Part shown: positions 5,931-57,689 of the stretch, in pieces
Position numbering within the stretch: the stretch's first letter is position 1
Layout of the letters: each line of letters opens with the position of its first letter
DNA from: Longitalea luteola
GTDB lineage: Bacteria > Bacteroidota > Bacteroidia > Chitinophagales > Chitinophagaceae
Reading direction: 5' to 3'
Assembly (NCBI RefSeq): GCF_017356035.1
Contig: NZ_JAFIQX010000009.1
Location: 62,001-126,000, forward strand
Length of the DNA stretch: 64,000 nucleotides
Made by a program: the position numbers and the translations under genes
Notes under the pieces: model-generated
Databases searched by the model: none
What the model was told of the DNA's origin: nothing
What the model saw: only the letters and a program-made list of their open reading frames with translations

Positions 5931-6482
5931 ATGGTAAATCCAGGACCAGGAATATTACTCATCGCCGAACCTTTTTTAAAGGACCCGAATTTCAGCAGAA
6001 CGGTGGTTTTCTTATGTGATCACCAGGAGGAAGGCAGCTTTGGCTTTGTAATAAACAGGGTTTTCGGCCACACCCTCAACGAGCTGATGAACGACCTGGA
6101 TGAATTAAAACTCCCCGTTTTTTATGGCGGCCCCGTGCAAATGGATACCATTCATTTCCTGCATCAATATCCCGATCTGATCCCCGGCAGCTATGAAGTG
6201 CTGGATGGCATTTACTGGGGCGGCGATTTTGAAACGGCCATTACGCTCATCAAGGCGGGTTCTATTGATACTACCAAGATAAGGTTTTTTATAGGTTACT
6301 CAGGCTGGGGCAGCGGCCAGCTGAATGATGAGTTAAAAGAAAAGTCCTGGCTTACTGCCCATGCTACCCGCAAGCTGGTCTTTCACCGCAAAGCCGACGA
6401 GATCTGGAAAGAATCGCTGAAACACCTCGGCGGCGATTATGAAATGATGGCCAATTTCCCGGTTGATCCCCAACTTAACTAA
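5931..6482 (+). CDS. YqgE/AlgH family protein
   Basis: 183 residues matching the whole YqgE/AlgH (UPF0301) family: an N-terminal GPGILLIAEPFLKDPNFSRTV-type segment, VVFLCDHQEEGSFGFVINR, VFYGGPV and FFIGYSGWGSGQL. The biochemical role of the family is not established, so none is claimed. No signal peptide or membrane segment. It starts at an ATG with a long A/T-rich leader. Its stop codon is the first triplet of a 7-nt word array (6480-6517), and the convergent barrel gene has one too. Confidence 0.93.
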   Translation: MVNPGPGILLIAEPFLKDPNFSRTVVFLCDHQEEGSFGFVINRVFGHTLNELMNDLDELKLPVFYGGPVQMDTIHFLHQYPDLIPGSYEVLDGIYWGGDFETAITLIKAGSIDTTKIRFFIGYSGWGSGQLNDELKEKSWLTAHATRKLVFHRKADEIWKESLKHLGGDYEMMANFPVDPQLN

Positions 6483-6517
6483 GTCAGGTTCCCGGTTACC
6501 AGTCGCCGGTTTCCGGG
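6480..6517 (+). repeat. Stop-anchored heptamer array after yqgE
   Basis: Words of 7 nt start exactly at the stop codon: TAAGTCA, then GGTTCCC, GGTTACC and two variants, followed by GGG. The register with the stop is exact. The convergent gene at 6749 has a matching array in inverted orientation. Confidence 0.8.
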
Positions 6518-6669
6518 CCTTTTATTCTAAGTCACTGTAACTTTTATAGCTTGCGATCGAAGAGATCAACCGCCGCAACACAAAAGAAAATCCGTTTCTG
6601 TTAATCTGTTACATGCATCCGGTAAATTAAGAGTTCCAAGCTGCAGGTAAAGCTGTAAGCAAAGTACCT

Positions 6670-6751
6670 GGAACTTGGAACATGGAACCCGGATCAAGCG
6701 CTGAAACCGTTTCCTGGTAACGGGTATCCGGTAGCCGGTAACCAATATTTA
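6670..6751 (-). repeat. Stop-anchored heptamer array after the barrel protein gene
   Basis: Reading leftward from the stop codon at 6751-6749, seven 7-nt words follow in register: TAAATAT first, then forms such as CGGCTAC and CGGATAC. Further left, 6670-6690 holds three more 7-nt words (GGAACTT type). The words are largely complementary to those behind yqgE. Confidence 0.75.
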
Positions 6752-7384
6752 CCGCAACGGAAACTTCACCCCTAAACCTGCACCCCAGTTACTGAGGTCG
6801 TCAACACCCATTTCTTTGTAAGGCATGTAATTATACGCGCCGAAAAGATGGATGCCTGCGGGGCCTTGTGGCCTGAACGGTATAAATAACCCAACCTCGG
6901 GCCGGGCAGCAAACTTGAAATCTGATTTCGAATTTTCAAACTCACCGAGGTACTGGTCAAATACGACCATATTACCACCCAGGCCTAACCCAACATAGGG
7001 TTGAATGGTCTTACCCGGTAAAAAGCGGTATTGCACCTGTGCCAGCAATGGTATGGTTTGAATAGAATTCGTCATTACTGCCGATACTTCTCCGCCTTCT
7101 TCTAATTTATATACGGCACGGGGATACTTCTGATAAAAATCCTGGAATCCCACGCCAACCCCTACCGATACGTTGTTCGTAACATTGTACATGAGGTTGG
7201 CTGTCCAGCCACGGGTCGAGGTCTTTTCAACAGCCCCTGTTTTAAAAGAACTGCCCGGCACACCTATGCTGTAATTTATATCGAGTTGTAATACCCTTTC
7301 CTGCGCCTTCCCGGCGAATGGAATAACTACCAAAAACAACAGACTGCTTACAAATAGCATAGCCGTCCTGAACTGCATTTTCAT
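6749..7384 (-). CDS. Exported outer-membrane beta-barrel protein
   Basis: 211 residues with a signal peptide (MKMQFRTAMLFVSSLLFLVVIPFAGKAQ, cleavage after AQ near residue 28). The rest alternates polar and hydrophobic residues in strands with glycine-rich turns (VSVGVGVGFQDF, QPYVGLGLGGNMVVF, IHLFGAYNYMPY) and ends in GAGLGVKFPLR, a typical barrel end. This is the small OmpA-like/OmpW-like opacity-type barrel often annotated as outer membrane beta-barrel or porin family protein. Specific function unknown. It is 35 bp downstream of a DUF4136 lipoprotein gene in the same direction, so the two may be cotranscribed envelope genes. Confidence 0.8.
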   Translation of the reverse strand: MKMQFRTAMLFVSSLLFLVVIPFAGKAQERVLQLDINYSIGVPGSSFKTGAVEKTSTRGWTANLMYNVTNNVSVGVGVGFQDFYQKYPRAVYKLEEGGEVSAVMTNSIQTIPLLAQVQYRFLPGKTIQPYVGLGLGGNMVVFDQYLGEFENSKSDFKFAARPEVGLFIPFRPQGPAGIHLFGAYNYMPYKEMGVDDLSNWGAGLGVKFPLR

Positions 7385-7419
7385 ATCTGTGATTTTTTGT
7401 GTTCGTAAAGAGAATTGCC

Positions 7420-8055
7420 TTAAGATGCCCTGAAATATGCACTCTGGTCAAAAAGCGCCTTCACGCCATTATTGGCGGCCGAAACGCCAAAAACGCCCGA
7501 ACCCCTGATCAGGCCGTTCCAGATGTTCCTGATGGTGTTGGTCTGTTTGGCATCTCTTAAGTTAAAGATGTCGATCGACATAGCCCCCTCCGTAATAGAG
7601 TAGGTGCCATAATAATACGATGGGAAATAGTACCCATATCCACCATAGCCCCAGTAATAGGGATCCCAGTAAGAACCGTAAAAAGGATCCCAGTAGGCGC
7701 CGTAATCAAACACACCGGTTGACGTATTATATACTGCACTGATATTGATACCAAGGTCAGGATCCTGGTCTTTAGCCACCTGCGTATAACCACGTTGCAC
7801 CAACTGATCCCTCACGGCATTGATGTACGCGACAGCCACGTCGGTGCGCGTTTTACCCTCAAGCTTGTTGTTACTGATAATGGCTACCGAATCGGCAATA
7901 CTGAACGTTCGAAAGGAGCCAAAGTCAACAGAGTCGGAATGTTTGGTGATATAGATCTGCCCTTCATCACCTTCGAGATTCTTAACGGGGTCTTTTCTGC
8001 AACTGGTAAATGCCAGCAACCCTCCTGCCAATAGCACATATACTATATTCTTCAT
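7420..8055 (-). CDS. DUF4136 domain lipoprotein
   Basis: 211 residues starting MKNIVYVLLAGGLLAFTSCRKDP, a lipoprotein signal with the lipidated cysteine near residue 20. The segment VDFGSFRTFSIADSVAI followed by a helix (AVAYINAVRDQLVQRGYTQV) and DPDLGINISAVYNT fits the DUF4136 family of periplasmic or outer-membrane lipoproteins. A tract of about 40 residues is very rich in Tyr, Gly, Trp and Pro (three copies of YWDP-like units, then GGYGYYFPSYYYG). A start at 8118 would put 21 polar residues ahead of the lipobox and was rejected. Role unknown; it probably shares a transcript with the barrel protein gene. Confidence 0.85.
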   Translation of the reverse strand: MKNIVYVLLAGGLLAFTSCRKDPVKNLEGDEGQIYITKHSDSVDFGSFRTFSIADSVAIISNNKLEGKTRTDVAVAYINAVRDQLVQRGYTQVAKDQDPDLGINISAVYNTSTGVFDYGAYWDPFYGSYWDPYYWGYGGYGYYFPSYYYGTYSITEGAMSIDIFNLRDAKQTNTIRNIWNGLIRGSGVFGVSAANNGVKALFDQSAYFRAS

Positions 8056-8255
8056 AACTACTGATTTTACATGTTGATATTGAAATTTCAAACAAAGCCA
8101 ATGCCTTAATGTTTGCAATTTCTATTCCTTAACAGCACACTAACATGTGTTGAAAATATCGAATACGACAATTGATTACATGCGTGTTATCGACATGAGA
8201 GATGGTCTACCGTTTAATGGTGGTTGCCTAAAGAAATGTGAAAAGGCGGAAAGCT

Positions 8256-8337
8256 GAAGGCTCAAGGCTCAAGGCTCAAGGCTAAAGGCTGAAGGCTCAA
8301 AGCTTAAGGCTCAACGCTCAAGGCTAAAGCTCAAGGC
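8256..8337. repeat. Heptamer array (CAAGGCT), twelve words
   Basis: Ten exact-length 7-nt words ending in GGCT, AGCT or CGCT follow each other (CAAGGCT most often, also GAAGGCT, TAAGGCT, CAACGCT), then one 6-nt slip and a partial word. It lies in the 531-bp gap between the DUF4136 gene and recG, away from any stop codon. Confidence 0.85.
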
Positions 8338-8364
8338 GGTGAATATGGAAAAGATCATGTAACC

Positions 8365-8575
8365 GTTACAGGTTACAGGTTGCAAGTTTCAGGGAAATAC
8401 AAAATACAAACTCATTCAACCTGGCATATTTAACCTGCAACATCCGTTACTGCAACAGCAAACTGGCAATCGGCAGCCGGAAACCCTGTTACCTGAAACC
8501 TGAAACTTTAATCCTGATACCCGGTAACTGGTAACCGGAAACCGGTAACCATATATCCTGTAACCTGAAACCTGT
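8365..8575. repeat. Inverted pair of heptamer arrays upstream of recG
   Basis: Left block 8365-8392 has GTTACAG-type words. Right blocks at about 8489-8506, 8523-8550 (GGTAACC-type) and 8558-8575 (CTGTAAC, CTGAAAC) are largely complementary to it. The arrangement could fold into a long imperfect hairpin. The right end stops only 12 bp before the likely recG start. Confidence 0.7.
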
Positions 8576-8586
8576 ATTTTTGCTGC

Positions 8587-13900: not shown

Positions 13901-14623
13901 TATACGGCTGTTTTCAATAACACATCACTGGCCGGCCAGGAGTTCTATTGGGATTTTGGCGATGGCACCACTTCCAACGAAGTGAACCCGGTTCACGTAT
14001 ATAACAATATTGGAACTTACCGGGTAACACTGCGGGTTGTTGATACCAGCACCTGTAACAAAGAGGACGCTACCTATATGGACATTGGCGTGCATCCGCT
14101 GCCTACCGCCGATTTCTCGGTAGCGCCCGTTCCGCCGGTGACCAACCGGCCTACGGTATTCACTAATTTATCGACCGGGGGCACTCGATATGTATGGCTG
14201 TTTGGCGATGGCGATTCTACCATCAAAACCACGATGGATACAGTTGGCCATCAGTACAATTCAACCGGTACGTTCAATGCCTGCCTCATTACCTTCAATG
14301 AGTTCAATTGCAGTGATACGATCTGTAAACCTGTGGAAGCGCTGATAGATCCGTTATTGGATGTACCCAACGCATTTACACCGGGCCGCTTTGGCAGGAA
14401 CAGCTATATTTCTGTTGCGGGCTTTGGCATTGCCAAAATGAGCTGGAAGATCTATAACCGTTGGGGACAACTGGTATTTGAAACGAATAACCGGAAAGTG
14501 GGCTGGGATGGCACCTACAAAGGCCAGCCGCAACCCATGGATGTATATGCCTACACGCTCGACGTGGAATTTTCCGACGGAAGAAAACTAAGAAAGACAG
14601 GTGATATTACGTTAATACGCTAA
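10919..14623 (+). CDS. Type IX-secreted PKD-domain surface protein with type B sorting domain (paralogue A)
   Basis: 1234 residues. A TTG start gives a signal peptide (hydrophobic ISLIILLLTITALEI, ending near residue 35 at KAQ). Then comes the STFEFTENKGQWESK segment of a conserved N-terminal domain (DUF7948-like), a propeller-like region of SBBP-type repeats (VYATYLG/IWSSYLGGSGDD type) to about residue 790, and four PKD domains (WSFGDGTPD, WDFGDGTR, WDFGDGTT, WLFGDGDS). It ends with the C-terminal gliding-motility/type B sorting domain (VPNAFTPGRFGRN ... YNRWGQLVFET ... GWDGTYKGQ). Type IX machinery should export it to the cell surface. It is a paralogue of the gene at 16033 and lies next to a PorP/SprF partner. 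No ATG is available before the signal peptide. The stop codon begins a 7-nt word array. Confidence 0.93.
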   Translation: MRFVSNYINENRQALGRISLIILLLTITALEIKAQGGPSTFEFTENKGQWESKIKFKGELPAGDFYLHPNGFTVVQHNTSDLQRYFHRQHGAGEQHTADKKNARTVKDKKFEPQQPGEDTATMPGYKIRSHAYQVTFIGAAENPVITPDKPLPTYSNYFIGNDPSKWQSNVKTFQAVLYKNIYPNIDVRYYSDNGHLKYDLIVNPGGNVNNIRMRYEGADKLLIKNKELIIRTSVGDVKELYPYSYQFDPVKGRQETSCSYVLADKNTVQFKVGNYAPNNILIIDPSLIFSSFTGSRAGQYGFTATPGPDGSLYSGGIVFGNGFPVSPGAYQSSFQGGSTNGGVDMGIFKFSPDGSQRMYATYLGAEGNDYPHSLICDPQGNLVVMGRTYSSRYPGTLVGPGGGADIAVTKLNANGTAIIGSLRIGGAGADGVNVSDMQEGGSINLTSTLRFYGDDSRSEVTLDNSGNIYVAAQTRSDNFRIIGSVFGTASGGGQDGVVMKIDPTCNNVIWSSYLGGSGDDGAFVISVNPGNNDIYVGGATTSTNFPGNKSGVYQGGSQGATDGFVAQIANNGSTIIRSTYMGTGAFDAVYGIKFDRMNIPYIMGITEGTWPIVNAAYNGGNSRQFIAKLQPDLSGFVYSTTFGNGAARPNISPVAFLVDRCENVYISGWGGWISANGRDPFNMSGVAGMPITPDALKTVTDNHDFYFIVIKKDAASLLYGSFFGQSGGEGEHVDGGTSRYDAQGVIYQAICANCFGSSVGNISAPYPITPGVWGPVNGTGTSNCNLAAAKIAFNFAGVASGPQPYFNGAVDSLGCVPFTVTLKDTVLNAKSYVWSFGDGTPDVSTTDVEVTHTFGAVGDYRVRLIAIDSTTCNIRDTAYVNIHVRADKADLAFLTNKLQPCESLNYRFENTTGFPPTKPFQASSFTWDFGDGTRVTPGDRVVEHSYASAGTYKTRLILHDTAYCNSPDSIEKELRVSPLVDARFETPPSGCAPYTAVFNNTSLAGQEFYWDFGDGTTSNEVNPVHVYNNIGTYRVTLRVVDTSTCNKEDATYMDIGVHPLPTADFSVAPVPPVTNRPTVFTNLSTGGTRYVWLFGDGDSTIKTTMDTVGHQYNSTGTFNACLITFNEFNCSDTICKPVEALIDPLLDVPNAFTPGRFGRNSYISVAGFGIAKMSWKIYNRWGQLVFETNNRKVGWDGTYKGQPQPMDVYAYTLDVEFSDGRKLRKTGDITLIR

Positions 14624-14832
14624 ACGCGGAACGCGAAACGCCAAACGCCGAACGCTAAAGGCTGAAGGCCAAAGGCAACGCCAGCGTTTGAAATCGGGAT
14701 GCCCGCCTACAGGCGGCAGTCTGAAAATGCAGGAATAGGCCTTAAGCGTTAGGTCTTGCGCCTTAGGCTTTTGGCGTTAGGCCTTGCGCCTTAAGCTTTT
14801 GGCGTAAGCGTTAAGCCCTGAGCGTTATGCGT
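14621..14832. repeat. Composite repeat: heptamer array - core - inverted heptamer array (copy A)
   Basis: From the stop codon, eight 7-nt words ending in ACGC or AGGC (14621-14676, first word TAAACGC) run into a 62-bp core (14674-14735). After it come thirteen words of complementary type (14743-14832: TAAGCGT, TAGGCCT, TTGGCGT) with one 6-nt slip. The word before the stop, AATACGC (14614-14620), is coding but already fits the array. The core contains the near-palindrome GCCCGCCTACAGGCGGC. A related core (about 80% identical over 62-63 bp) lies behind paralogue B in the opposite orientation. Confidence 0.8.
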
Positions 14833-14907
14833 TTTGATAATAATACGTTAAAGCTCCCTGAAAGCTTGACGGTGGTACAACAAATTGTAATTTTAGAACA
14901 GGTGGTT

Positions 14908-19000: not shown

Positions 19001-19734
19001 GATGCGCGCCCTATACAGCCATCTTTAACAACACGTCGCTGGCGGGGCAGCAATTCTCCTGGGATTTTGGTGATGGCACCGGTTCATCGGAAGTGAACCC
19101 TGTGTATACCTATCCGAATGTGGGCACTTACCGGGTCTCCCTGATCGTGATCGACACCAACACCTGTAATAAAACGGATACCACCATACGAGAGATTAAC
19201 GTGTATCCAAAACCTGTAGCCGATTTCGCCTTCTCGCCCGTAACGCCTGAGGTGAATAAACCTACCATCTTTACGAATTTGTCGGGCCCTGCCGTAGAGT
19301 ACCAATGGCATTTTGGCGATGGGGAACAGGTTACTAAAAGAACGGCTGATACTGTCATGCATCAGTTCAATGCTACCGGCACATTTGATGTTTGCCTGGT
19401 GGCTGTGTCTGAGAATTATTGCACCGATACGATATGTAAACCGGTACAGGCATTGATCAATCCGTTGCTTGATGTGCCCAATGCCTTTACACCCGGCCGC
19501 TTTGGCCGCAACGGCATTGTAATGGTAACCGGTTTTGGTATTGCCAAAATGAACTGGCGCATTTATAATCGCTGGGGAAAGCTGGTATTTGAAACGCAGG
19601 ATCGCCGCATCGGCTGGGATGGCACCCATAAAGGCCAGCTGCAACCAATGGATGTGTATGCCTACACGTTAGACGTAGAGTTCTTCGACGGGCAGAAGCT
19701 GCGGAAGACGGGAGATATTACATTAATACGCTAA
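16033..19734 (+). CDS. Type IX-secreted PKD-domain surface protein with type B sorting domain (paralogue B)
   Basis: 1233 residues, colinear with paralogue A over its whole length: signal peptide ending RSVAQ near residue 34, STFEFTENKGQWDKQ, SBBP-like propeller repeats, four PKD domains (WNFGDGTPD, WEFGDGTR, WDFGDGTG, WHFGDGEQ) and a type B sorting domain (VPNAFTPGRFGRNG ... YNRWGKLVFET). The start is TTG at 16033, which matches paralogue A in length; a second TTG at 16057 would also leave a good signal peptide. It begins only 27 bp after the PorP/SprF gene, so the two are likely cotranscribed. Some blocks are almost unchanged between paralogues (LRVSPLVDARFETPPSGCAP), others diverge, suggesting duplication with uneven drift or conversion. 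Ligand unknown. Confidence 0.93.
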   Translation: MQPSYNYTLKTQILVKHILVAIALISSAVRSVAQGPSTFEFTENKGQWDKQVTFKSDLPTGNFFLQKNGFTVVQHNTEDLQQLHDGHEASLTGRSGTNRPKTKNSPSLPARIAGNSFTIRSHAYKVQFIGAAENPEIIPDKVLPGYSNYLIGNDPSKWRTNIKSCQAVIYKNIYPNIDVRYYSESGRLKYDIIVNPGGDPGNIVMKYDGADKLSVKNSELVIKTSVGEVRELYPYSYIFDKIHGKQETSCAYKLEGKNIVRYKTADYAKTSTLVIDPAIIFSTFTGSTTDEYGFTATPGPDGSLFSGSIVFSPGGFPVSPGAYKTTHSGGSVRGIDIGIFKFSPNGANRVYATYLGGTEDDVPHSLYCDNQGNLVVLGRSYSSDYPGTLHGPGGACDMIVTKLNATGTAIIGSMRIGGTQNDGLNIEDQLVTRSTTNPFRSVSLLRNYGDHSHSEVILDDAGFIYVAGQSQSDDFPMRGGGFQNKRAGAQDGVVLKINPNCNSILWSSFLGGSADDAAFVLALQPNTNDIYVAGGTSSANLPGTVPGFQNRFISDTLVGNIDGYVTIFSNDGTIIKRTTYLGTKQIDLVYGIQFDQFNYPYVMGTSRGDWPVINAVYSNPGTKQFVSKLKPDLTGIEYSTTFGSGGRPNISPVAFMVDRCENVYVSGWGGWHSNSRDPYDLGGVANMPITRDALKSVTDDRDFYFIVLERNAASLLYGTYFGQNGGFGEHVDGGTSRFDKQGAIYQAICANCFGNTTSSSPITQPYPTTPGVWAARNGTGNVGCNLGAVKILFNFSGVGSGPKAYFNGNFDTVGCVPFTLNFADTVLDAKSYEWNFGDGTPDVKTTGYNVTHTFTSVGTYRVRLIAIDSSSCNIRDTAYLNIYVRDDEAHISYTVKKLDPCESLNYEFVNTSTFPPGKPFNANSFTWEFGDGTRITPGAQTIQHSYGSSGTYLTRLILNDTAYCNSPDTALHELRVSPLVDARFETPPSGCAPYTAIFNNTSLAGQQFSWDFGDGTGSSEVNPVYTYPNVGTYRVSLIVIDTNTCNKTDTTIREINVYPKPVADFAFSPVTPEVNKPTIFTNLSGPAVEYQWHFGDGEQVTKRTADTVMHQFNATGTFDVCLVAVSENYCTDTICKPVQALINPLLDVPNAFTPGRFGRNGIVMVTGFGIAKMNWRIYNRWGKLVFETQDRRIGWDGTHKGQLQPMDVYAYTLDVEFFDGQKLRKTGDITLIR

Positions 19735-19904
19735 ACGCTTAACGCCGAATGCTTAACGCTTAAGGCCTAACGCTTGTTCCGGAATTTTGAAACTGCCGCC
19801 TGCAGGCCGGCATCCTTTCATTTAAACGCTGGCTTTGCCTTTAGCTTTATGCCTTCAGCCTTTAGCCTTCAGCTTTCAGCCTTTGGCCTTTAGCCTTCAG
19901 CCTT
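19732..19904. repeat. Composite repeat, core inverted relative to copy A (copy B)
   Basis: From the stop codon, six 7-nt words (19732-19773; TAAACGC, TTAACGC and variants). Then a 63-bp core at 19777-19839, which is the reverse complement of the copy A core at about 80% identity. Then ten words of TAGCCTT/CAGCCTT type (19835-19904). As in copy A, the coding word AATACGC precedes the stop in register. The core holds GCCGCCTGCAGGCCGGC, a near-palindrome. Confidence 0.8.
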
Positions 19905-19945: not shown

Positions 19946-19978
19946 ATTAGCTAATTAGGTAATTAGCTAATTACCTTA
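19946..19978 (-). repeat. Stop-anchored octamer array and palindrome after the aldo/keto reductase gene
   Basis: Leftward from the stop codon (19978-19976) there are four 8-nt words in register: TAAGGTAA, TTAGCTAA, TTACCTAA, TTAGCTAA. They create a perfect 18-bp palindrome at 19958-19975 (GGTAATTAG and its complement). It may serve as a 3'-end hairpin. Confidence 0.8.
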
Positions 19979-20872
19979 CCGGTGCTGTTCATACTTATTA
20001 GCCACTACTGCATTTTGCAAGATCGCCATTTCCTCAACGGTAAGTGCGGGCGTCTGCAGCACGGCAACGGCTTCTTCCAACTGCTGCATTGTCCTGATAC
20101 CGGCCACGGCTGCTGTAAGAGCCGGATGCTGTAATACAAAGCGAATGGCTGTTTGCGCTGCATTGCGCTGCCTGTTCGAGACGGCATCGATGGCAGCAGC
20201 GGCCTGCTCCACTTCCTGCGGCGAATAATTCAGGTAAGTCTTCGATGGTTTATTCACCAGTAAGCCCTGTGCTACCGCACCTCTTGCCAGCACGCCGATG
20301 TTATTTTCCTGTAAAAGTGACAAACATGTTTCTTCGGGCCGTCGGTCTAACAAACTATACTGCATCATCACGCTCACAATGTTCGACCGTTTGATATATT
20401 CCCTGATCACATTGGGGCGAATAGATGAAATGCCATAATACCTGATCTTTCCCTGCTGCTTTAACAACTCAAAGGCTTCAATGGTCTCGCCTATGGGATC
20501 ATCGATGGTGCCGCCATGCAACTGGTACAGATCGATATAATCGGTTTGCAGCCGTTGCAGGCTCTTTTCCACCTGGTTCAGAATATATTCCTTGCGCGGA
20601 TTCCAGTCCCACCCGCTGCCATCTTCGCGCCATTGATTGCCCACCTTGGTGGCTATATACAGGTTCTGGCGATGCGGTTTAAGCGCTTTGCCAACAGATA
20701 CTTCATTCATGCCCTTTGCATACAGGTCGGCGGTATCAAAAAAGTTAATGCCGAGGTCAAATGCCCGGTGCAGGATCTTCTCATTAGCAGCATCATCGTC
20801 GCCCAATGACATACAACCAAAGCCAATGCGGCTGATATGCAGGTCTGACTTACCTAATTGTACATATTCCAT
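19976..20872 (-). CDS. Aldo/keto reductase
   Basis: 298 residues of the NADP-dependent aldo/keto reductase fold. Seen: MEYVQLGKSDLHISRIGFGCMSLG at the start, the catalytic Asp/Tyr region NFFDTADLYAKGMNE, the lysine strand YIATKVGN, LQTDYIDLYQLHG with the active-site His, and YYGISSIRPN. C-terminal NADP-binding residues near TAIRFVLQHPALTAAVAG are present. The ATG at 20872 begins the conserved first strand; 20899 would add nine residues. The substrate cannot be told from sequence. It follows a GH2 gene in the same direction but a strong terminator (20902-20936) separates them. Confidence 0.92.
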   Translation of the reverse strand: MEYVQLGKSDLHISRIGFGCMSLGDDDAANEKILHRAFDLGINFFDTADLYAKGMNEVSVGKALKPHRQNLYIATKVGNQWREDGSGWDWNPRKEYILNQVEKSLQRLQTDYIDLYQLHGGTIDDPIGETIEAFELLKQQGKIRYYGISSIRPNVIREYIKRSNIVSVMMQYSLLDRRPEETCLSLLQENNIGVLARGAVAQGLLVNKPSKTYLNYSPQEVEQAAAAIDAVSNRQRNAAQTAIRFVLQHPALTAAVAGIRTMQQLEEAVAVLQTPALTVEEMAILQNAVVANKYEQHR

Positions 20873-20891
20873 AATGGCATAAATATAAACT

Positions 20892-20936
20892 AAAAGCAAA
20901 AAAGGTGTGCCACACTTTGAAAGTGTGGCACACCTT
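20892..20936 (-). terminator. Strong rho-independent terminator of the GH2 gene
   Basis: A perfect 17-bp inverted repeat (arms 20902-20918 and 20920-20936, AAGGTGTGCCACACTTT and its complement) is followed on the minus strand by CCTTTTTTTGC. It lies 28 bp beyond the GH2 stop codon and 30 bp upstream of the next gene's ATG. Confidence 0.9.
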
Positions 20937-20964
20937 AGTTATAAGGAAATATTATAGTGCTAAA

Positions 20965-25134: not shown

Positions 25135-25229
25135 AGTTTATAGTTTACAGTTCAAAGTTTATAGTTCACAAAGGTTCAAAGTTAAGGTTCATGCCGGTTT
25201 CCTGTTTCCGGTTGCCGGGAATGGTATTA
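25135..25229 (-). repeat. Heptamer words between the locus 1 stop codon and its terminator
   Basis: From the stop codon at 25229-25227, degenerate 7-nt words (TAATACC, GCAACCG, GAAACCG types) run leftward. They are followed at 25135-25169 by five clean words (AGTTTAT, AGTTTAC, AGTTCAA types on the plus strand). Here an array and a classical terminator occur together. Confidence 0.65.
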
Positions 25230-39110: not shown

Positions 39111-39162
39111 TCAAAATGTATAATTGTTTGTATGACAATATACGCGTTATCCTGGTTAAATC

Positions 39163-39211
39163 AGGTTATTAAGTTATTTAGTTCATAAGTTCCTTTAACT
39201 AAATAACTTAA
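39163..39211. repeat. Octamer words forming a perfect 15-bp hairpin
   Basis: Six 8-nt words (AGGTTATT, AAGTTATT and so on) that reverse direction in the middle. They create a perfect 15-bp inverted repeat: arms 39169-39183 and 39197-39211, 13-nt loop. The stem is almost pure A/T. It lies between proA's 3' array and the HTCS promoter. Confidence 0.8.
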
Positions 39212-39218
39212 TATCTGC

Positions 39219-39301
39219 GAACTGTGAACCGTAACCTTTGAACTTTAAACTTTAAACTTTGAACTGTGAACTTTGAACTGTGAACTTTGAACTGTGAACT
39301 A
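39219..39301 (-). repeat. Stop-anchored heptamer array after proA, twelve words
   Basis: Leftward from the stop codon (TAG at 39301-39299) the first word is TAGTTCA, then CAGTTCA and AAGTTCA alternate in exact register for about eleven words. It is the cleanest stop-anchored array in the window. Confidence 0.9.
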
Positions 39302-40550: not shown

Positions 40551-41585
40551 TTAAAAAATTACAATATCATCAGCATGCGCTGCCAGTACATTGCGCTTGG
40601 AAATGCCATCGCGGATAGCATTTGCATCGAGCTTAACTTTGGCAACGCCCAGGATGTTTTCATCTTCGTCTTTTATTTGTACTACTTCCCCTGCTGCAAA
40701 TTTTCCCTGCACATGGGTTACGCCTACCGTCAATAAACTGCGGCGTTGCAGCAATGCTTTGGCTGCACCTTTGTCAACCGCAAGCGTACCCAGGGTAATG
40801 CTACCGCTCGCCAGCCATTTCTGGCGGGCTTTCAAATTCGAAGGCTGGGGTTCAAAGGTAGTTCCATTCCTGTTGGTCAGGGCTTCTGCAAATGGTTCTT
40901 TTCTGTTCAGACCACAAATGATCACCTTAATACCAAGCGATGTAGCCAGGCGGGTGAATGTGAGTTTGGAGGTCATGCCGCCCAAACCGAGACTGCTCTT
41001 GCCGGTCTGTACATAACCCATCACCTTGCTGTCGATCTTTTCAACGCGAGGCATTATGTTTCCGGCGTCATCCATAAATCCGCCCACAGAAGTACAGATA
41101 ATGAGTGTTTCTGCATCGAACCCTACTGCAATGAGGGTAGCGAGCTCATCGTTGTCGGAAAATTTCAGCTCCACATTGCTCACCAGGTCATTTTCGTTCA
41201 CAATCGGCAAAATGCCGTTCTGCCAGAATGCTTCAAATGTTTCTTTTAACTGAACAAATTGAAACCGGTTGCTGAAATGGTGCCGTTCGCACAGCGCCTG
41301 GGCCACGGGAATGTCGTATTTGGAGAAATGCTTCTGGTATAACTGGATCAACAGCGGGTTACCCACTGCTGCAGCTGCTTTACGTTCGGTAATGCTGCCT
41401 TTATAATTCTTAATATATACCTTTCCGCTGCCCACTGCTCCGCTTGAGACCAGTACCACCCGGTGGGTCTCGAATAAAGCGGCAATCCCAGCCGCCACTT
41501 TTTTTATAATGGTATGACTAATTACTCCTTCATCATTGGTGATGACCGCAGTGCCAAGCTTAATTACTAAAACCGGTTTTTGCAT
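40551..41585 (-). CDS. proB: Glutamate 5-kinase ProB
   Basis: 344 residues. Phosphorylates glutamate on its gamma-carboxylate, the feedback-controlled first step of proline synthesis. Seen: MQKPVLVIKLGTAVI at the start, VLVSSGAVGSGK, LPIVNENDLVSNVELKFSDNDELA, and GLGGMTSKLTFTRLATSLGIKVII. The C-terminal third fits a PUA-like domain (SLLTVGVTHVQGKFAAGEVVQI). The start at 41585 is the conserved one; a reading frame from 41705 would translate the upstream repeat as ISDFRLR-type repeats and is an artefact. Transcribed with proA. Confidence 0.96.
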   Translation of the reverse strand: MQKPVLVIKLGTAVITNDEGVISHTIIKKVAAGIAALFETHRVVLVSSGAVGSGKVYIKNYKGSITERKAAAAVGNPLLIQLYQKHFSKYDIPVAQALCERHHFSNRFQFVQLKETFEAFWQNGILPIVNENDLVSNVELKFSDNDELATLIAVGFDAETLIICTSVGGFMDDAGNIMPRVEKIDSKVMGYVQTGKSSLGLGGMTSKLTFTRLATSLGIKVIICGLNRKEPFAEALTNRNGTTFEPQPSNLKARQKWLASGSITLGTLAVDKGAAKALLQRRSLLTVGVTHVQGKFAAGEVVQIKDEDENILGVAKVKLDANAIRDGISKRNVLAAHADDIVIF

Positions 41586-41601
41586 GCGCAAATGTAAGAC
41601 A

Positions 41602-41661
41602 GAAGTCGGAAGTCTGAAGTCGGAAATCCGAAGTCGGAAGTCGGAAATCTGAAGTCGGAAG
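41602..41661. repeat. Heptamer array (GAAGTCG) upstream of proB
   Basis: Eight 7-nt words, GAAGTCG five times with GAAGTCT, GAAATCC and GAAATCT, start 17 bp upstream of the proB start codon. One of the few arrays at a 5' end. Confidence 0.85.
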
Positions 41662-42015: not shown

Positions 42016-42091
42016 AACCAATGGGCAATAGACAAGAGACAATAGACAAAAGACAAAGGTAAAACCAATTGGCAATTGACAATAGGCAAAA
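42013..42091 (+). repeat. Stop-anchored heptamer array after the small lipoprotein
   Basis: In register with the stop: TAAAACC, AATGGGC, then AATAGAC, AAGAGAC, AATAGAC and AAAAGAC. A second block of GGCAATT/GACAATA words follows at 42064-42091. Confidence 0.85.
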
Positions 42092-42208
42092 AGCTATTTG
42101 CAAAGCAGAACCAATTGGCAACCTCCAAACAGTTTAAAAGGTGGTGCCTGCGAATGGTACTTGCACCCACTGACCGGCTGACCGGCGGGCGATAGCCAAT
42201 TTGATCAG

Positions 42209-43162
42209 TTAATTCCTGAATTCCTGTGAGATCATTAACCCATATTTGCCACCATCTACAATGCCGATACCCAGGCGGCCGAACTCGGGCCGAAGGATAT
42301 TGGCGCGGTGCCCCGGAGAATGCATTAATCCACTGTGTGCAATATCGAGTGTTGGCGCCAGGGCAATATTTTCTCCTGCATTTGTAAATCGTACACCATC
42401 ATTGCGCATGCGGTCGAAAGGCCCTTTGCCATCAGGGGCAACATGTGAAAAATAGCCGCGCTGGAACATATCTACCGAATGTTTGCGCGCAACTGCCGTT
42501 AATTCGGGATCGGCTTTGAGGATATTCAGTCCCCTTTTTATCCGCTCGCCATTTACCCAGCTTAACATCAGTGTTTCCAGATCGCCTCTGGGCGGCGGAG
42601 CAATTACGGTGAAAGGCAGAATGACGGTTTCATCTGAACCCGGTTTTACCGTCAACCGGTTCATCGTTCTTTCTACTTCAGTAAATACCAGCGATAATTT
42701 CGTTTCTATCCATTCAGCCGGGACCGACAGCATTACCACAAAGCGGCTTTCGCGTGTTTTATCAGTGATCTTATTACTGATAGGCAGAGCCAGCACCAGG
42801 GCAGCCACGATCACCGCATGTGCAATGCCATTTAAGGCGCCAGGTAAAATGCCCAGGAATTTATTATCCCACCGGCCATGTGCTTCAACCGGTATTGTAT
42901 GTAATGTTTTATTCGTCAGTAAATTTATTAACACCCGAACCACAACATAGGTAGCTATAAATGCAAGGGGCAATGCCCAGGAGCCGAGGGAAGGAAAGTA
43001 TTTGTTGATAAACATTGTAGGATATGGATATAATAAAAAAGTAGCGGCGATGCTGATAATCAGCCCCAGCAGATAAAGTAACTCCAGGATAAATCCTTTT
43101 TGCCAACCATCCCAAATGCCGTAGGCAACGATGATCAACAGCAATATATCAATCCAATTCAT
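42209..43162 (-). CDS. CvpA family membrane protein fused to a CAP (SCP/PR-1) domain
   Basis: 317 residues. The N-terminal half (1-170) is a CvpA-like membrane module: MNWIDILLLIIVAYGIWDGWQKGFILEL, four hydrophobic helices, and the conserved DNKFLGILPGALNG. After a short linker the C-terminal part (about 195-315) is a CAP domain, with LMLSWVNGERIKRGL, HSVDMFQRGYFSHVAPDG, AGENIAL and MHSPGHRANILRPEFGRLGIG, the usual set of conserved residues. CvpA is tied to colicin V export and envelope stress; bacterial CAP domains are extracytoplasmic and of varied function. The helices would place the CAP domain outside the membrane. The role of the fusion is unknown. Confidence 0.9.
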   Translation of the reverse strand: MNWIDILLLIIVAYGIWDGWQKGFILELLYLLGLIISIAATFLLYPYPTMFINKYFPSLGSWALPLAFIATYVVVRVLINLLTNKTLHTIPVEAHGRWDNKFLGILPGALNGIAHAVIVAALVLALPISNKITDKTRESRFVVMLSVPAEWIETKLSLVFTEVERTMNRLTVKPGSDETVILPFTVIAPPPRGDLETLMLSWVNGERIKRGLNILKADPELTAVARKHSVDMFQRGYFSHVAPDGKGPFDRMRNDGVRFTNAGENIALAPTLDIAHSGLMHSPGHRANILRPEFGRLGIGIVDGGKYGLMISQEFRN

Positions 43163-43514
43163 ACTTGCTTTGCTATTGAAAAAACCATGCTACCAGTGGC
43201 AGTTGTATTTTCCGGCCGGCAATTGCAAGATTTACATACCAGGGGATCGTATTGTTGCTAAAATTCTACATTTTTAGAATGACCGCCGGTTTGAAAATAA
43301 TAAAGGCCCGGATAGAAATCCAGGCCTGTTAAAAATCCAATATCCTATGAAAAACCGATATACTAACGGTGTTCGTGCTTTGCAAATTGTTTGCGGCTGA
43401 AAAATATTTTTTAAGGCTGAGAATGTGTTGTTTATACCTATTAAAAAACCTCAACAGCCGCTGCCTTGCATAGCCACCAACTTACATTCGTATACCGGTA
43501 TTGAAAGAACTACA
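43163..43514. other. Noncoding 352-bp stretch between the CvpA-CAP gene and an unknown gene
   Basis: Contains the hairpin and candidate RNA at 43296-43349 and otherwise A/T-rich sequence. The plus strand has only a 17-codon frame from the ATG at 43347, too short to support. Confidence 0.5.
43296..43349 (-). ncRNA. Candidate ~54-nt small RNA, second locus with CATAGGATA start
   Basis: Minus-strand layout: TTTG, 20 bp, TATATCGG (43355-43362, near the Bacteroidota -7 motif), then CATAGGATA (43341-43349), then a 9-bp hairpin with one mismatch (43304-43327, AGGCCTGGA arm) followed by TTATTATTTTC. It repeats the arrangement at 2552-2622. The T-run is weaker. Alternatively it is a plain terminator for the exported-protein gene at 43515, about 190 bp away. 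Confidence 0.25.
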
Positions 43515-53042: not shown

Positions 53043-53107
53043 AACAAACGTTTTAGGTTAAAGTGTTAATTCTTCCTTCTGATTTTCTGGTCAAATAAAT
53101 GTATTCA

Positions 53108-53123: not shown

Positions 53124-53127
53124 AGTT

Positions 53128-53159: not shown

Positions 53160-53275
53160 TATAAAGTTGATCAATAATTCGCGTGCAGGTTCATTGAACT
53201 ATGTGTAACCACATAGCTGATCTTCTCATTTTTAAATAAAATAAGGAATGGATAAAGTTTCGGGTGGGACTGCTC

Positions 53276-54163: not shown

Positions 54164-54257
54164 TGCAATCGTTTTTAAATTAAGACAGATGTTTGTTGGT
54201 TTCCGAAACTAAGTTCTAATTTTTTGCTAAAGATTGTTAGCCATCAATTAACTTTAT

Positions 54258-54275
54258 TTACGAAAACGGTTGCGA
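54258..54275. promoter_or_regulatory. LacI-type operator between MIOX and its regulator
   Basis: TTACGAAAACGGTTGCGA contains the 14-bp near-palindrome CGnAAnCGnTTnCG (54261-54274), the usual layout of LacI/CcpA-family operators with a central CG. It is 66 bp upstream of the regulator's ATG and about 95 bp upstream of MIOX. An inverted copy with one change lies at 55595-55612, before the symporter gene. Confidence 0.7.
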
Positions 54276-54340
54276 AACAATGCAGCAATTTGCGGCATAA
54301 AATAGTCTGTAATACAAATATTTAAGGGGTCAATCCACCA

Positions 54341-55348
54341 ATGAGCAAAGTAAACATAAAGGTTTTAGCAGATCAGTTGCAGCTGTCGGTTTCTACCATT
54401 TCAAAAGCCCTGCGCGACAGTTATGAGATCAGTGATGAAACCAAAAAAAAGGTGATGGAACTGGCTACGCAATTGAATTACATTCCTAACCCCTATGCCA
54501 GCAGCCTGCGGCGTAAGAAGAGTAAGACCATTGCAGTAGTGCTGCCCGAAGTGGCTGATAATTTTTTTTCCCTCGCTATCAATGGCATTCAATCTATTGC
54601 TGAATCAAAAGGGTATCATGTACTTATCTATCTTTCACACGAGAAATATGCCAATGAAAAGAACATTCTAGAAGATTGTCAAAGCGGCCGGGTGGATGGC
54701 GTGTTGATCTCCATTTCCAGTGAAACCAATTCGGCTGAACATATTAATAAGTTGCAGACCCGGAATATTCCCGTAGTTTTTTTCGACCGCGAACAGGAAG
54801 CTATTGAAACGGCGCGCGTAACTACCAACGATTTTGACTGTGGCCTCATGGCTGCGAAACATTTGTTGCAGAAAGGCTGCCGCCGGCCGGCATTTCTTTC
54901 TATTTCGCAAAGCCTGCCCATCTGTTTGAACCGGCTGGAAGGTTTTAAGGCAGCAGTTCAGCAGGCGGGCGTACCCGAAGAAGACAGGCAGATCGTTTAT
55001 TGCACTGATAATGATGGCATGTATGATCAAATAAAATTGTTACTGCAACAACCGAACCGGCCCGACGGACTGATCGCTTCTGTTGAAAAGATCGTTACGC
55101 CGGTGTACCTGACCTGCCATGAACTGAAGATCAATATTCCGAACGAGGTAAAAGTTATTGCATTCGCTACATTGGATACCGCCCCTATTTTGAATCCGCC
55201 GCTCACGACGATCACCCAACCGGCTTTTGAGATCGGCAAAGCCGCGGCTACGCTGCTTTTTAAAGGTATTGAGAAAAGCTCTTTTGATTTGAGAAAGGAA
55301 CGAATGATCATTCCTTCCATGTTAATTGAACGGGAGTCAACAAAGTAA
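54341..55348 (+). CDS. LacI family transcriptional regulator
   Basis: 335 residues. N-terminal helix-turn-helix and hinge (IKVLADQLQLSVSTISKALR, residues 4-23; QLNYIPNPYASSLRR). A periplasmic-binding-protein-like sensor domain follows (KTIAVVLPEVADNFFSLAINGIQSIAESKGYHVLI, GVLISISSE, VVFFDRE, AAKHLLQKGCRRPAFLSIS, TTITQPAFEIGKAAATLLF). Position between MIOX and a sugar/polyol symporter, with matching operators on both sides, suggests a local repressor or activator of inositol use and of its own gene. The inducer is inferred, not shown. The stop codon begins a ten-word 7-nt array. Confidence 0.95.
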   Translation: MSKVNIKVLADQLQLSVSTISKALRDSYEISDETKKKVMELATQLNYIPNPYASSLRRKKSKTIAVVLPEVADNFFSLAINGIQSIAESKGYHVLIYLSHEKYANEKNILEDCQSGRVDGVLISISSETNSAEHINKLQTRNIPVVFFDREQEAIETARVTTNDFDCGLMAAKHLLQKGCRRPAFLSISQSLPICLNRLEGFKAAVQQAGVPEEDRQIVYCTDNDGMYDQIKLLLQQPNRPDGLIASVEKIVTPVYLTCHELKINIPNEVKVIAFATLDTAPILNPPLTTITQPAFEIGKAAATLLFKGIEKSSFDLRKERMIIPSMLIERESTK

Positions 55349-55583
55349 GCGTTACAGGTTACAAGTTGCAGGTTACAGGGTGACAGCTGCTGTTTACCAG
55401 TTACCGGTTACCGGGCCATTATTTCAGGCCTCCGACTTCTTCCTCGTCTAACTATAATCATTGCATCCTGACTTTGCCTTGTAGCCTGAAACAGGCAACC
55501 CGCTAAGCGGGCAAGCTCTGAAACCAATAACCCTGACTTATTGGAAAGACCCTGTATGCTGGTAACCGGGAACCGGTAACCGG
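55346..55583 (+). repeat. Stop-anchored heptamer array after lacI and second block
   Basis: From the stop codon there are ten 7-nt words in register: TAAGCGT, TACAGGT, TACAAGT and so on to TACCGGG (55346-55415). After about 145 bp containing the hairpin CCCGCTAAGCGGG, a second block at 55561-55583 has GGTAACC-type words complementary to the first. The rest of the 348-bp gap carries no gene. Confidence 0.8.
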
Positions 55584-55594
55584 CACATTTTCCC

Positions 55595-55612
55595 TCGCAA
55601 CCGTATTCGTAA
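55595..55612. promoter_or_regulatory. LacI-type operator upstream of the symporter gene
   Basis: On the minus strand this reads TTACGAATACGGTTGCGA, identical to the site at 54258-54275 at 17 of 18 positions. It is about 90 bp upstream of the symporter start. A separate inverted repeat, ATTATGA-6-TCATAAT, follows at 55626-55645. Confidence 0.7.
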
Positions 55613-55702
55613 CTTTTTCATCTTAATTATGATTGTAGTCATAATAATGAAATGAAAGAAATATATTGTGCATAGAAACTATCACACCCTCAACGATTGC
55701 AC

Positions 55703-57364
55703 ATGCGCCTACAACTTGCCGATTACCTGATCATTCTGGTATATTTCATTTTTGTTATTGGTGTTGGGTTCCTTATAAAAAAGAAAATAAAATCAAGTAA
55801 CGATTTTCTCACCAGTAACCGAAGCATTCCCCTTTGGATCACCAGTCTTGCTTTTATCTCTGCCAATCTCGGTGCACAGGAAGTGATCGGGATGGTAGCC
55901 TCCGGCGCCAAATACGGTATCATGACCGTACACTTCTATTGGGTGGGCGCCATCTTCGCCATGGTATTCCTCGGTGTTTTTATGATGCCTTTTTATTATG
56001 GAAGCCGTGCGCGCAGTGTACCAGAATACCTGTCGCTCCGCTTCGACGAAAAGACACGCGGCCTCAATGCCATTTCCTTTGCCGTTATGACCGTGTTCTC
56101 CTCCGGCATTTCATTATATGCACTGGCGAAACTCATGGAAACGATCCTGCATTGGAATTTTGATATTTCCATCTGGATATCGGCCGGCATCGTCATGGTC
56201 TATACTTTTCTGGGCGGACTTACCAGCGCGGTGTACAATGAAGTATTGCAGTTCTTCCTGATCGTTCTGGGACTGTCGCCACTGGTTATCATATCACTGC
56301 ATGATGCAGGCGGCTGGAGCAACATTAAAGCATTGTTACAACCTGAAATGACCCATGCCTGGAAATATATGGGCAATGCCAATGACAACCCGATGGGACT
56401 GCATTTTATGTCGTTGATCTTCGGGTTGGGCTTCGTGATGTCTTTCGGTTACTGGTGCACCGATTTCCTGGTGGTGCAACGCGCCATGATCGCCCGCAAT
56501 ATGGGCGACGCACAACGTACACCCATCATTGCAGCGATCCCCAAAATGTTAATGCCGCTGATCGTGGTGCTGCCCGGATTAATTGCCATCACCTTAATGC
56601 AGCCCGCCCTGCAATCGAAAGGATATACCATTCCTGCAACGGCTAACGGTGAGCTGGATTATACCATGACCCTGCCATCCCTCATTGCCCATTACTACCC
56701 TACCGGCATACTGGGCGTTGGCATTACGGCCCTCATCGCTTCCTTCATGAGTGGTATGGCCGGTAACGTTACGGCATTCAACTCGGTATTTACATTCGAT
56801 ATTTATCAATCCTATTTTGTAAAGAATAAAAGCGACCGGCATTACCTGCTGGTTGGCAAGGGTATCACGGTGATAGGCATCCTTATTTCCATTGCCACGG
56901 CCTACATTGCCAAAAGCTTTAATAATATCAACGACTTCCTGCAACTGGTATTCGGATTTGTGAATGGCCCCTTGTTCGCCACTTTTCTGTTAGGGATGTT
57001 CTGGAAAAGAACCACAGGGCATGGCGCTTTCTGGGGACTTGTTGCGGGCACGCTCGCCGCGGCTGTTACGCATGGGGTAACGGTGGCTGAGGGAAAAGGC
57101 GGCTGGATCGCCGAACTATATACCATCAAAAGCGGTATGGGCCAGGCGTTCATTGTAGCAGCCATTTCCTGGATCGTAAATTTCTTCACCACCATTGCGG
57201 TAAGCCTGGTTACCAAACCCAAACCGGATGAGGAACTGAAAGGTTTAGTATATTCGTTAACAGAGAAACCGAAATACCATCAACAAAAATGGTATTTGCG
57301 CATAATACCCCTGGGCTTGTTGCTGCTGGCGGTCACCATTTTGTTGAACATTATTTTCTTTTAA
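55703..57364 (+). CDS. Sodium:solute symporter (SSS family), probable inositol transporter
   Basis: 553 residues with about 14 hydrophobic segments. SSS features: LADYLIILVYFIFVIGVGFLIKKK (TM1), SSNDFLTSNRSIPLWITSLAFISANLGAQEVIGMVASGAKYG, RSVPEYLSLRFD, VYTFLGGLTSAVYNEVLQFF, TDFLVVQRAM and ALIASFMSGMAGNVTAFNSVFTFDIYQ with sodium-site residues. Eukaryotic SGLT/SMIT and bacterial polyol carriers share this pattern. Specificity for myo-inositol is inferred from MIOX, the LacI regulator and the shared operator. The ATG at 55703 is chosen over the TTG two codons earlier. Confidence 0.9.
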   Translation: MRLQLADYLIILVYFIFVIGVGFLIKKKIKSSNDFLTSNRSIPLWITSLAFISANLGAQEVIGMVASGAKYGIMTVHFYWVGAIFAMVFLGVFMMPFYYGSRARSVPEYLSLRFDEKTRGLNAISFAVMTVFSSGISLYALAKLMETILHWNFDISIWISAGIVMVYTFLGGLTSAVYNEVLQFFLIVLGLSPLVIISLHDAGGWSNIKALLQPEMTHAWKYMGNANDNPMGLHFMSLIFGLGFVMSFGYWCTDFLVVQRAMIARNMGDAQRTPIIAAIPKMLMPLIVVLPGLIAITLMQPALQSKGYTIPATANGELDYTMTLPSLIAHYYPTGILGVGITALIASFMSGMAGNVTAFNSVFTFDIYQSYFVKNKSDRHYLLVGKGITVIGILISIATAYIAKSFNNINDFLQLVFGFVNGPLFATFLLGMFWKRTTGHGAFWGLVAGTLAAAVTHGVTVAEGKGGWIAELYTIKSGMGQAFIVAAISWIVNFFTTIAVSLVTKPKPDEELKGLVYSLTEKPKYHQQKWYLRIIPLGLLLLAVTILLNIIFF

Positions 57365-57378
57365 TAAAGCTTGCTTCC

Positions 57379-57561
57379 ATGTTGAAAAAATTAAACGATC
57401 TGCAGTTTGTCATAGGCCTATTCTTTACCATGATATCGCTTATTTTATTGCTCAGTGTATTACTCGGAAACAACAGTGCCAGTGAATTGAATACCTACAC
57501 CGGTGGTGGCTTCCTGATATTCGGGCTTGCCATGATGTTTATAAAAGGAAGGAAACAATAA
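57379..57561 (+). CDS. Small two-helix membrane protein following the symporter
   Basis: 60 residues from the ATG at 57379, 14 bp after the symporter stop. Two hydrophobic helices (FVIGLFFTMISLILLLSVLL and GGGFLIFGLAMMFI) joined by GNNSASELNTYT, with a basic end KGRKQ. Not recognised as a named family. Close spacing suggests cotranscription and perhaps an accessory subunit, as seen with some SSS carriers. The stop codon opens a 7-nt word array. Confidence 0.7.
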   Translation: MLKKLNDLQFVIGLFFTMISLILLLSVLLGNNSASELNTYTGGGFLIFGLAMMFIKGRKQ

Positions 57562-57689
57562 AGCAGGTTACAGGTTTCAAGTTACAGGTTATAAGGAAAT
57601 ACACACTTTTAAGCGGCATACATAATTCGCGAAACCGTGTAAGTTCGTAACCTGCAACCTGTAACCTGCAACCTGAAACTTGTGACTTA
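57559..57689. repeat. Facing stop-anchored heptamer arrays between convergent genes
   Basis: Left array from the plus-strand stop: TAAAGCA, GGTTACA, GGTTTCA and two more words (57559-57593). Right array from the minus-strand DinB stop at 57689: TAAGTCA, CAAGTTT, then CAGGTTG/CAGGTTA four times (57648-57689). The two are complementary and could pair as a hairpin around a ~55-bp loop. Confidence 0.85.

Follow-up and report, generated by a model that had tools for sequence, protein, structure and literature searches.

What are the arrays of short repeated words that stand against the ends of genes in Longitalea luteola, and how did they come to be there? The question arises from a 64-kb stretch of the genome of this soil bacterium (positions 62,001–126,000 of contig C43; 'the window' in what follows), in which tandem runs of 7- or 8-nt words lie between the genes. 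From the letters alone, an earlier reading—the sequence-only reading—took such arrays to be anchored to the stop codons of at least twelve genes, and saw in them either a 3'-end element or the product of a process that copies the sequence after stops. We think it likely that most of them are the arms of elements resembling REPINs (doublets of repetitive extragenic palindromes, REPs, that form hairpins), with the peculiarity that the arms are built of tandem words. Four observations carry this view: arrays abut stop codons in two species; they pair with inverted partners; one family of such elements is dispersed through a related genome, G003; and orthologous sites can be found empty. The case for such an element is strongest in G003; in the L. 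luteola genome it is indirect.

The L. luteola genome (G000; 7.30 Mb, 43 contigs) belongs to a genus group of ten that were compared (G000–G009). The others are Longitalea arenae (G001), Niastella caeni (G002), G003 (one contig, 9.03 Mb), N. populi (G004), N. soli (G005), a Niastella metagenome-assembled genome, or MAG (G006; 61% complete), Niastella sp. OAS944 (G007), N. vici (G008) and N. yeongjuensis (G009). Gene calls come from a home-made hexamer caller, gene names such as proA, yqgE and lacI are those assigned in the sequence-only reading, and score cut-offs for arrays vary between analyses, from 9 to 12. Papers are cited by PubMed Central number, in each case for the excerpts drawn on here.

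Arrays of seven- and eight-nucleotide words

Autocorrelation of the window and 400 kb of contig C11, set against first-order Markov resampling, leaves no doubt that the arrays are real. Intergenic DNA peaks at lags 7, 14, 21, 28 and 35, with a lesser peak at 8; coding DNA displays the codon period only. At one score cut-off there are 83 intergenic arrays of lag 7 and 34 of lag 8, versus 0.8 and 0.6 in resampled sequence, and a single array of each kind in coding DNA. Lags 5, 6, 9, 10 and 11 yield from none to two, lag 4 yields five, and lag 14, a multiple of 7, yields 66, so that only periods 7, 8 (and 14) rise above background. The periods recur more widely. Among 80 proA loci in the family, arrays number 53 for lag 7 and 17 for lag 8, versus 8 for lag 6, 2 for lag 9 and 10 for lag 11; 28 of the 80 loci have an array of lag 7 or 8, among them all eight of the close Niastella and Longitalea loci.

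Arrays also occur away from the 3' ends of genes. Lag-7 arrays are densest in convergent regions (189 per 100 kb), and occur in tandem (110) and divergent ones (81) as well.

Position relative to stop codons

Of the twelve window stops singled out at the start, eleven have the near edge of an array between −4 and +11, counted from the first base of the stop; at the twelfth, the GH28 stop (44471), no array reaches a score of 9. These eleven are every stop-adjoining array found among the 36 called genes of the window, and an edge comes equally close at 11.7% of random intergenic points. Adjacency to stops therefore stands; the strict register that was claimed with it does not, for the offsets vary.

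The same adjacency appears in larger samples, judged against arrays placed at random within their own intergenic regions, with array length and region kept. In 864 kb of the L. luteola genome (the window plus 400 kb each of contigs C11 and C22), 60 of 238 stop-side edges fall at −4 to +10, where 24.9 are expected, and 15–60 nt from the stop there is a deficit (31 versus 61.5). In 400 kb of G003, 37 of 112 fall at −4 to +10 (expected 14.0). Starts attract no such pile-up: 17 of 202 edges versus 14.7 expected in the first sample, 3 of 84 versus 7.4 in the second.

With offsets ranging from −4 to +10, arrays do not as a rule begin exactly at the stop, nor does the stop triplet supply the first bases of word one. 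In none of the twelve listed cases does the full triplet recur one array period further on; two of its three bases recur at +7 for the second secretion paralogue, proA, lacI and dinB, and at +8 for the aldo/keto reductase. Phase zero fails as a general rule, and a phase is preferred in some word families only, AGTTC (the dominant phase in 7 of 10 arrays) and TAATGTG (8 of 16) being examples.

Such preferences bring to mind a possible artefact. Words such as TAACGC, TAATGTG and TAGTTC contain stop codons, and since repeats of 7 or 8 nt pass through every frame, arrays of them will end any gene they invade; MacGregor (2015) said as much of TAACTGA repeats, and the two families with phase bias are of the stop-containing kind. 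Families whose words hold no stop (GTTACAG, AAGGCAG, GTTTGTG) adjoin stop codons too, however, and orthologues seem to keep their stop positions irrespective of the word, so we consider it very improbable indeed that adjacency is an artefact of this sort.

The sequence-only reading knew of no description of anchoring at stops, but such descriptions exist. REPs sit less than 20 bp from the 3' ends of open reading frames (ORFs) and can donate the stop codon (PMC3733652), and the G-rich heptamer repeats of Xanthomonas and Nostoc fall within 50 bp of stops (PMC4692102).

Inverted pairs and a dispersed element

Arrays that share an intergenic region are often related by inversion. Among 80 pairs of arrays within one region, 35% are inverted at a score of 10 or more, versus 5% of pairs across regions; direct similarity is seen in 29% within a region and 6% between regions. 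Downstream of arrays that abut stops, an inverted partner is present for 29 of 63 in the L. luteola genome (null, 7%) and 18 of 41 in G003 (null, 10%); direct partners number 12 of 63 and 3 of 41.

In G003 the pairs resolve into a recognizable thing. An arm-core-arm query from that genome found, among the matches listed and with each palindrome counted on both strands, 69 in G003, 63 in G009, 16 in G005, eight in G007, four in G002, one each in G000, G006 and G008, and none in G001 or G004. The matches listed place this 'GTGAGT' element at no fewer than 40 distinct loci of G003. Twenty-two copies were read (20 among the best matches and two within the 400-kb sample), and all 22 align. They have a 40-nt core in common, with a mean pairwise identity of 0.73, and arms of 20–54 nt, four words being the mode; the consensus folds into a near-perfect hairpin of −58 kcal/mol. 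In all but one of the 22, a stop is found no more than 15 nt away on one side or the other, and in six this holds for both sides.

Might the arrays have simply grown where they are? In the survey of Mrazek et al. (2007), as related in PMC4679880, most genomes have heptamers as their most frequent long simple repeats, and replication slippage could extend them wherever DNA is unconstrained, with purifying selection halting the arrays at the stop, and nothing moving. It suits this account that arms vary in length by word steps, as the G003 element shows, that the cores searched for in G000 are unique or confined to a sister locus, and that divergent regions hold arrays too. Slippage predicts no inverted partners, however, no common core at 40 loci or more, and no clean empty sites. 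Moreover, growth by slippage keeps the distance to the stop, and so can create neither the pile-up next to stops nor the deficit at 15–60 nt. We regard growth in place as an unlikely origin for the bulk of the arrays.

Filled and empty sites

The REPIN-like reading gains from comparing orthologous sites. One convergent site holds a 110-nt element in G003 and 3 nt in the MAG, G006; the same site holds a hairpin of AAGTAAG type in G009 and an insert of GTGAGT type in G005, and in all four genomes a terminator-like hairpin follows. When G003 and G009 are compared at 28 orthologous regions, arrays are present in both genomes at seven, in G003 only at eight, in G009 only at one and in neither at 12. 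For G003 and G005 (17 regions), the corresponding figures are four, two and two, and nine. Clear filled and empty pairs between G003 and G009 measure 129 versus 0 nt, 185 versus 69, and 136 versus 12. Of the 13 one-sided cases, eight have the filled region longer by 49–224 nt, and array-free regions differ by a median of 6.5 nt (G003/G009) or 4 nt (G003/G005). The surmise that some process copies the sequence after stops thus came nearer the evidence than its companion, the 3'-end element, except that what is copied is a discrete inverted-array element: witness the dispersed family of G003, and the empty sites.

We suppose, then, an element laid out in three parts: a 7- or 8-nt word array, a core or loop of some 10–150 nt, and a second array, inverted, as the pairing partner of the first. 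Such elements would spread as DNA insertions, and settle at gene 3' ends as places that are either tolerated or targeted, sometimes lending a terminal word as the stop codon. Their arms would grow and shrink by word steps through slippage; their cores would decay with age, so that older copies, including most of those in the window, might be recognized by their self-repeating arms only; and different families would expand in different species.

A good deal weighs against this proposal, and should be set out. For about half of the arrays no partner was detected. In the one G003 family examined, covariation of the arms locus by locus was not found, their complementarity being 0.773 within loci and 0.762 between them. 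In the L. luteola genome, the core at 14677–14735 has one other match, the inverted core of its sister locus at about 19777–19836 (80%), and the core between the arms at 57564–57591 and 57649–57688 is unique; in the 864-kb sample, core sequence is shared by 10% of array-bearing regions versus 6% of array-free ones. The empty site at the convergent locus comes from a genome that is 61% complete, and in 5 of the 13 one-sided cases filled minus empty amounts to −227 to +27 nt. Most awkward is the comparison of G000 with its nearest relative, G001: 11 of 25 slots are filled, all 11 in common and none one-sided, though the words often differ. Simple insertion fails here unless old sites undergo replacement. 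Where both members of an ortholog pair have arrays, the word family is the same in 16 of 61, versus 17% of random pairs; slots are common but words differ, and therefore slots persist while words get replaced. That insertion is accompanied by replacement at old sites would have to be assumed, and here the model is at its weakest. Slots cluster across species (variance 2.97 versus 0.94), and this is not used as evidence because operon-internal genes have no room for arrays.

Conserved dispersed cores were sought in G000 and rejected, the two window-core searches having found nothing past the sister locus.

Transcription terminators

Arrays and hairpin terminators were thought to be inversely related, and as a pooled tendency they are. 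Of 39 convergent regions with arrays, 9 contain a terminator-like hairpin, and of 47 array-free ones, 23 do (pooled Fisher P = 0.015); neither species alone falls below 0.05 (P = 0.051 and 0.14). The role in termination that this suggested is not upheld: at one convergent locus elements lie between the stop and a terminator-like hairpin, and convergent regions of G000 are not more stable for having arrays (mean folding z −2.13 with, −2.34 without). In G003 they are somewhat more so (−4.17 versus −3.43). As ordinary intrinsic terminators the arrays were rejected, for they are without T runs and coexist with terminators.

A broader possibility is that the hairpins formed by the arrays terminate transcription or protect the 3' ends of mRNAs, and are kept behind stops by selection on the host. 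Abutment to stops and the scarcity of intrinsic terminators where arrays occur are both in its favor, as are the 11 of 11 filled slots common to G000 and G001. So, too, are the convergent regions abutted by arrays at both ends, whose folds are more stable (mean z −3.94, n = 6, and −5.27, n = 5), and none of which (0 of 6, 0 of 5) has a terminator-like hairpin (GC-rich, with a T run behind it). Yet just 11 of the 36 window genes have arrays at their stops, orthologous stops in relatives are empty, and the convergent locus compared in G003, G005, G006 and G009 keeps its intrinsic terminator alongside the elements. Array-bearing convergent regions in G000 are no more stable overall, and arrays are present in divergent regions. 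Selection for a 3'-end function thus strikes us as an improbable explanation of the arrays. On the REPIN-like reading, the elements would still form hairpins in the 3' untranslated regions of mRNAs, and any effect on 3'-end stability or readthrough would be a by-product.

Comparison with known repeats

Cyanobacterial short tandemly repeated repetitive (STRR) sequences are heptanucleotide tandem repeats. TAACTGA repeats, described from Beggiatoaceae, Cyanobacteria and five Bacteroidetes, are likewise intergenic heptamer arrays, some of them lying over stops, but they consist of one fixed word, are found mostly just upstream of starts, and are almost never inverted, with one indirect repeat in the BOGUAY genome (PMC4679880); the arrays described here comprise many words, in inverted pairs, at stops. 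Neither TAACTGA nor any rotation of it is among the 60 commonest of 92 array words. The GGGNATC heptamers of Xanthomonas and Nostoc show sense-strand enrichment within 50 bp of stops, and some are inverted; they differ in being G-rich, quadruplex-forming and of a single word type (PMC4692102).

The closest likeness is to REPINs and bacterial interspersed mosaic elements of REPs (REP-BIMEs), with their REP-associated tyrosine transposases (RAYTs, or TnpA-REP). These, too, are short extragenic inverted doublets that form hairpins, present in many copies and in species-specific families, and they adjoin the 3' ends of ORFs in convergent and tandem regions, sometimes donating the stop codon (PMC3116915, PMC3733652). 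Inverted hairpin doublets in extragenic DNA were found here, with the partner undetected for about half of the stop-abutting arrays; so was location beside ORF 3' ends; and dispersal in many copies was found for the GTGAGT element of G003 (at least 40 listed loci) and not for the two window cores. Unlike REPs, the arms are arrays of a variable number of 7- or 8-nt words, with many word families per genome, the cores of G000 are mostly not common to different loci, and that genome is without a class 2 (Y..NP) Y1 protein. The 5' foot tetranucleotide of canonical REPs, GT[AG]G, is missing in some Bacteroidetes classes (PMC6006769). What is new is the word-array arm, the multitude of word families and a possible link to a particular subclass of transposases, subclass 1.2; position at stops is already known for REPs. 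The literature searched, which left subscription journals mostly outside, has no description of inverted heptamer arrays in Bacteroidota, or of a tie between them and this subclass.

A candidate mobilizing enzyme

All ten genomes encode, in single copy, an HUH transposase with the signature Y---Q--HH, and in G000 there is one Y1_Tnp gene. It sits between aroF-like and aroB-like genes in the ten (in G006, aroB falls outside the piece fetched), these names being read from the translated proteins. Arrays surround it. One precedes aroF in all 10 genomes; 9 of 10 have one between aroF and the transposase gene, 8 of them with both arms; and one follows aroB in 7 of 9. In G009 the slot adjoining the transposase gene has no array. 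Compared across species, pairs of arrays near this gene are of the same word family in 53 of 102 cases, versus 16 of 61 elsewhere, the pairs being non-independent.

The G000 protein scores 54.6 bits against the IS200 model (cut-off 55) and 23.3 against the RAYT model (cut-off 80), and by the latter model it is no RAYT, the score being far under the cut-off. A Y1 protein of Y..NP type is present in 7 of the 10 genomes and absent from G000; no arrays were found around its loci in those seven. The signature is that of TnpA-Y1 subclass 1.2 of Corneloup et al. (2018), whose low copy number agrees with the single copy in each of the ten genomes. Members of that subclass have the Y---Q--HH motif, are reported chiefly from Cyanobacteria and Bacteroidetes, and occur in low copy with no insertion sequence (IS) properties; the excerpted text makes no link to heptamer arrays (PMC6006769).

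The single-copy Y---Q--HH transposase is the leading candidate for the enzyme that would mobilize the elements. One could go further, and propose that Y---Q--HH transposases copy and lengthen heptamer-array hairpins, and that the 7-nt repeats of both phyla, for long without an explanation, are the non-autonomous partners of a domesticated transposase. This would be a REPtron-like system, except that the unit recognized would be a hairpin arm of periodic sequence, in place of a fixed palindrome. The constancy of the gene's neighbors in ten genomes, with arrays around them, speaks for the idea, as do word families that look steadier there. The empty slot in G009 speaks against it, and so do relatives elsewhere in the family, several of which have a homologue and no array nearby. 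The comparison across Chitinophagaceae of array density with the presence of a homologue is not decisive: the 52.4 kb of intergenic DNA from 13 other genomes with a homologue contain 37 arrays (four genomes with at least two), and the 42.8 kb from 12 genomes without one contain 16 (two with at least two), some of these lying on runs of N. We offer the proposal tentatively, as something we doubt more than we believe.

Near the homologue of one family relative, 9-nt repeats occur within a 41-nt higher-order repeat (L272:3087–3364).

Loci of the window

Four inverted pairs can be seen in the window. At the first secretion paralogue, an ACGCTAA array (14617–14676, plus strand) overlaps the stop at 14621 (offset −4) as the 5' arm; the core already mentioned follows, and the 3' arm, TAGGCCT TAAGCGT (14736–14836, plus strand), reaches into the start of the next gene. 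The second paralogue is similar: ACGCTTA (19728–19773, plus strand) overlaps the stop at 19732, again at −4, and TTTAGCC (19834–19904, plus strand) forms the 3' arm. Behind the lacI stop (55346, offset +5) come GTTACAG and TTACCGG arrays (55351–55414, plus strand), the part at 55394–55414 pairing with the GGTAACC 3' arm at 55561–55583 (plus strand). Lastly, a CAGGTTA array (57564–57591, plus strand) follows the stop of a small membrane protein (57559, offset +5), and its 3' arm, AACCTGC (57649–57688, minus strand), abuts the stop of the convergent dinB-like gene (57689, offset +1).

Elsewhere, the yqgE stop (6480) is followed at +7 by GGTTCCC words (6487–6516, plus strand), possibly a 5' arm, and the barrel-protein stop (6751) at +8 by an array that reads GGTTACC in the sense direction (6716–6743, minus strand), the same word family seen from the opposite side. 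An 8-nt array, ATTAGCTA, lies at +2 from the aldo/keto reductase stop (19946–19976, minus strand; stop 19978), a degenerate 7-nt array at +11 from the lipoprotein stop (25194–25218, minus strand; stop 25229), and CAATAGA then CAATTGG arrays at +6 from that of the small lipoprotein (42019–42094, plus strand; stop 42013).

At proA (stop 39301), a 7-nt array, AGTTCAC in the sense direction (39215–39300, minus strand, offset +1), gives way to 8-nt inverted arrays, AAGTTATTT and AAATAACTT (39160–39214, minus strand). Arrays of this type were compared at 21 loci of G000 picked by similarity: 10 abut a stop, four follow one at another distance, five are beside a start and two are unassigned. About nine of the 21, judged by eye, continue into an 8-nt array. 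The succession of 7-nt AGTTCAC by 8-nt AGTTATT is seen at 39160–39300 of the window and at L340, L344, L345, L346, L351 and L355; it looks as if the longer word were derived from the shorter.

Inside a divergent region, away from any stop, are an AAGGCTC array (8243–8329) and an inverted pair, GTTACAG and AACCTGA (8365–8574). The minus-strand gene at 40551–41585 has an AAGTCGG array (41596–41661) some 10 nt ahead of its start. Orthologues of that gene in several species also have an array about 10 nt 5' of the start, and it ends immediately before a TAnnTTTG-like stretch, which we take to be the Bacteroidetes −7 box.

A scan of the window against Rfam gave no matches at gathering scores. Enrichment of 8-mers in non-array intergenic DNA revealed no motif common to the flanks of arrays, and turned up other palindromes instead (CTGGCGGA, TGTGGCAC); 8-mers of the TGTGGCAC type are overrepresented between genes. 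A small palindrome, GGTGTGCCACACTTTAAAAGTGGCACACC, is found at 20872–20964, with relatives on contig C22, and at 43162–43514 some 68 nt are 84–85% identical to intergenic stretches of C22 (ending TCCAATATCCTATGAAAAACC), a repeated sequence that is not an array. In other genomes, an AACTTTG-type array recurs every 42 nt in G008 (C46:174124–174808) and every 56 nt in G004 (C156:114532–114927), which suggests a larger tandem amplification. Two loci of another Chitinophagaceae genome (L295 and L296 of G182) contain 14 lag-7 arrays within 3.7 kb of intergenic DNA, and are denser in them than the window genome.

Implications

Heptamer repeats in bacterial genomes are well known, and their origin is not agreed. 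If many of them are the arms of hairpin elements at stop codons, then one question, that of a population of mobile elements, takes in their period, position, word families and turnover from species to species. The same possibility cautions against taking such arrays for regulatory signals specific to the 3' ends of particular genes. And for a subclass of transposases whose describers report no IS properties, the arrays offer a candidate partner.

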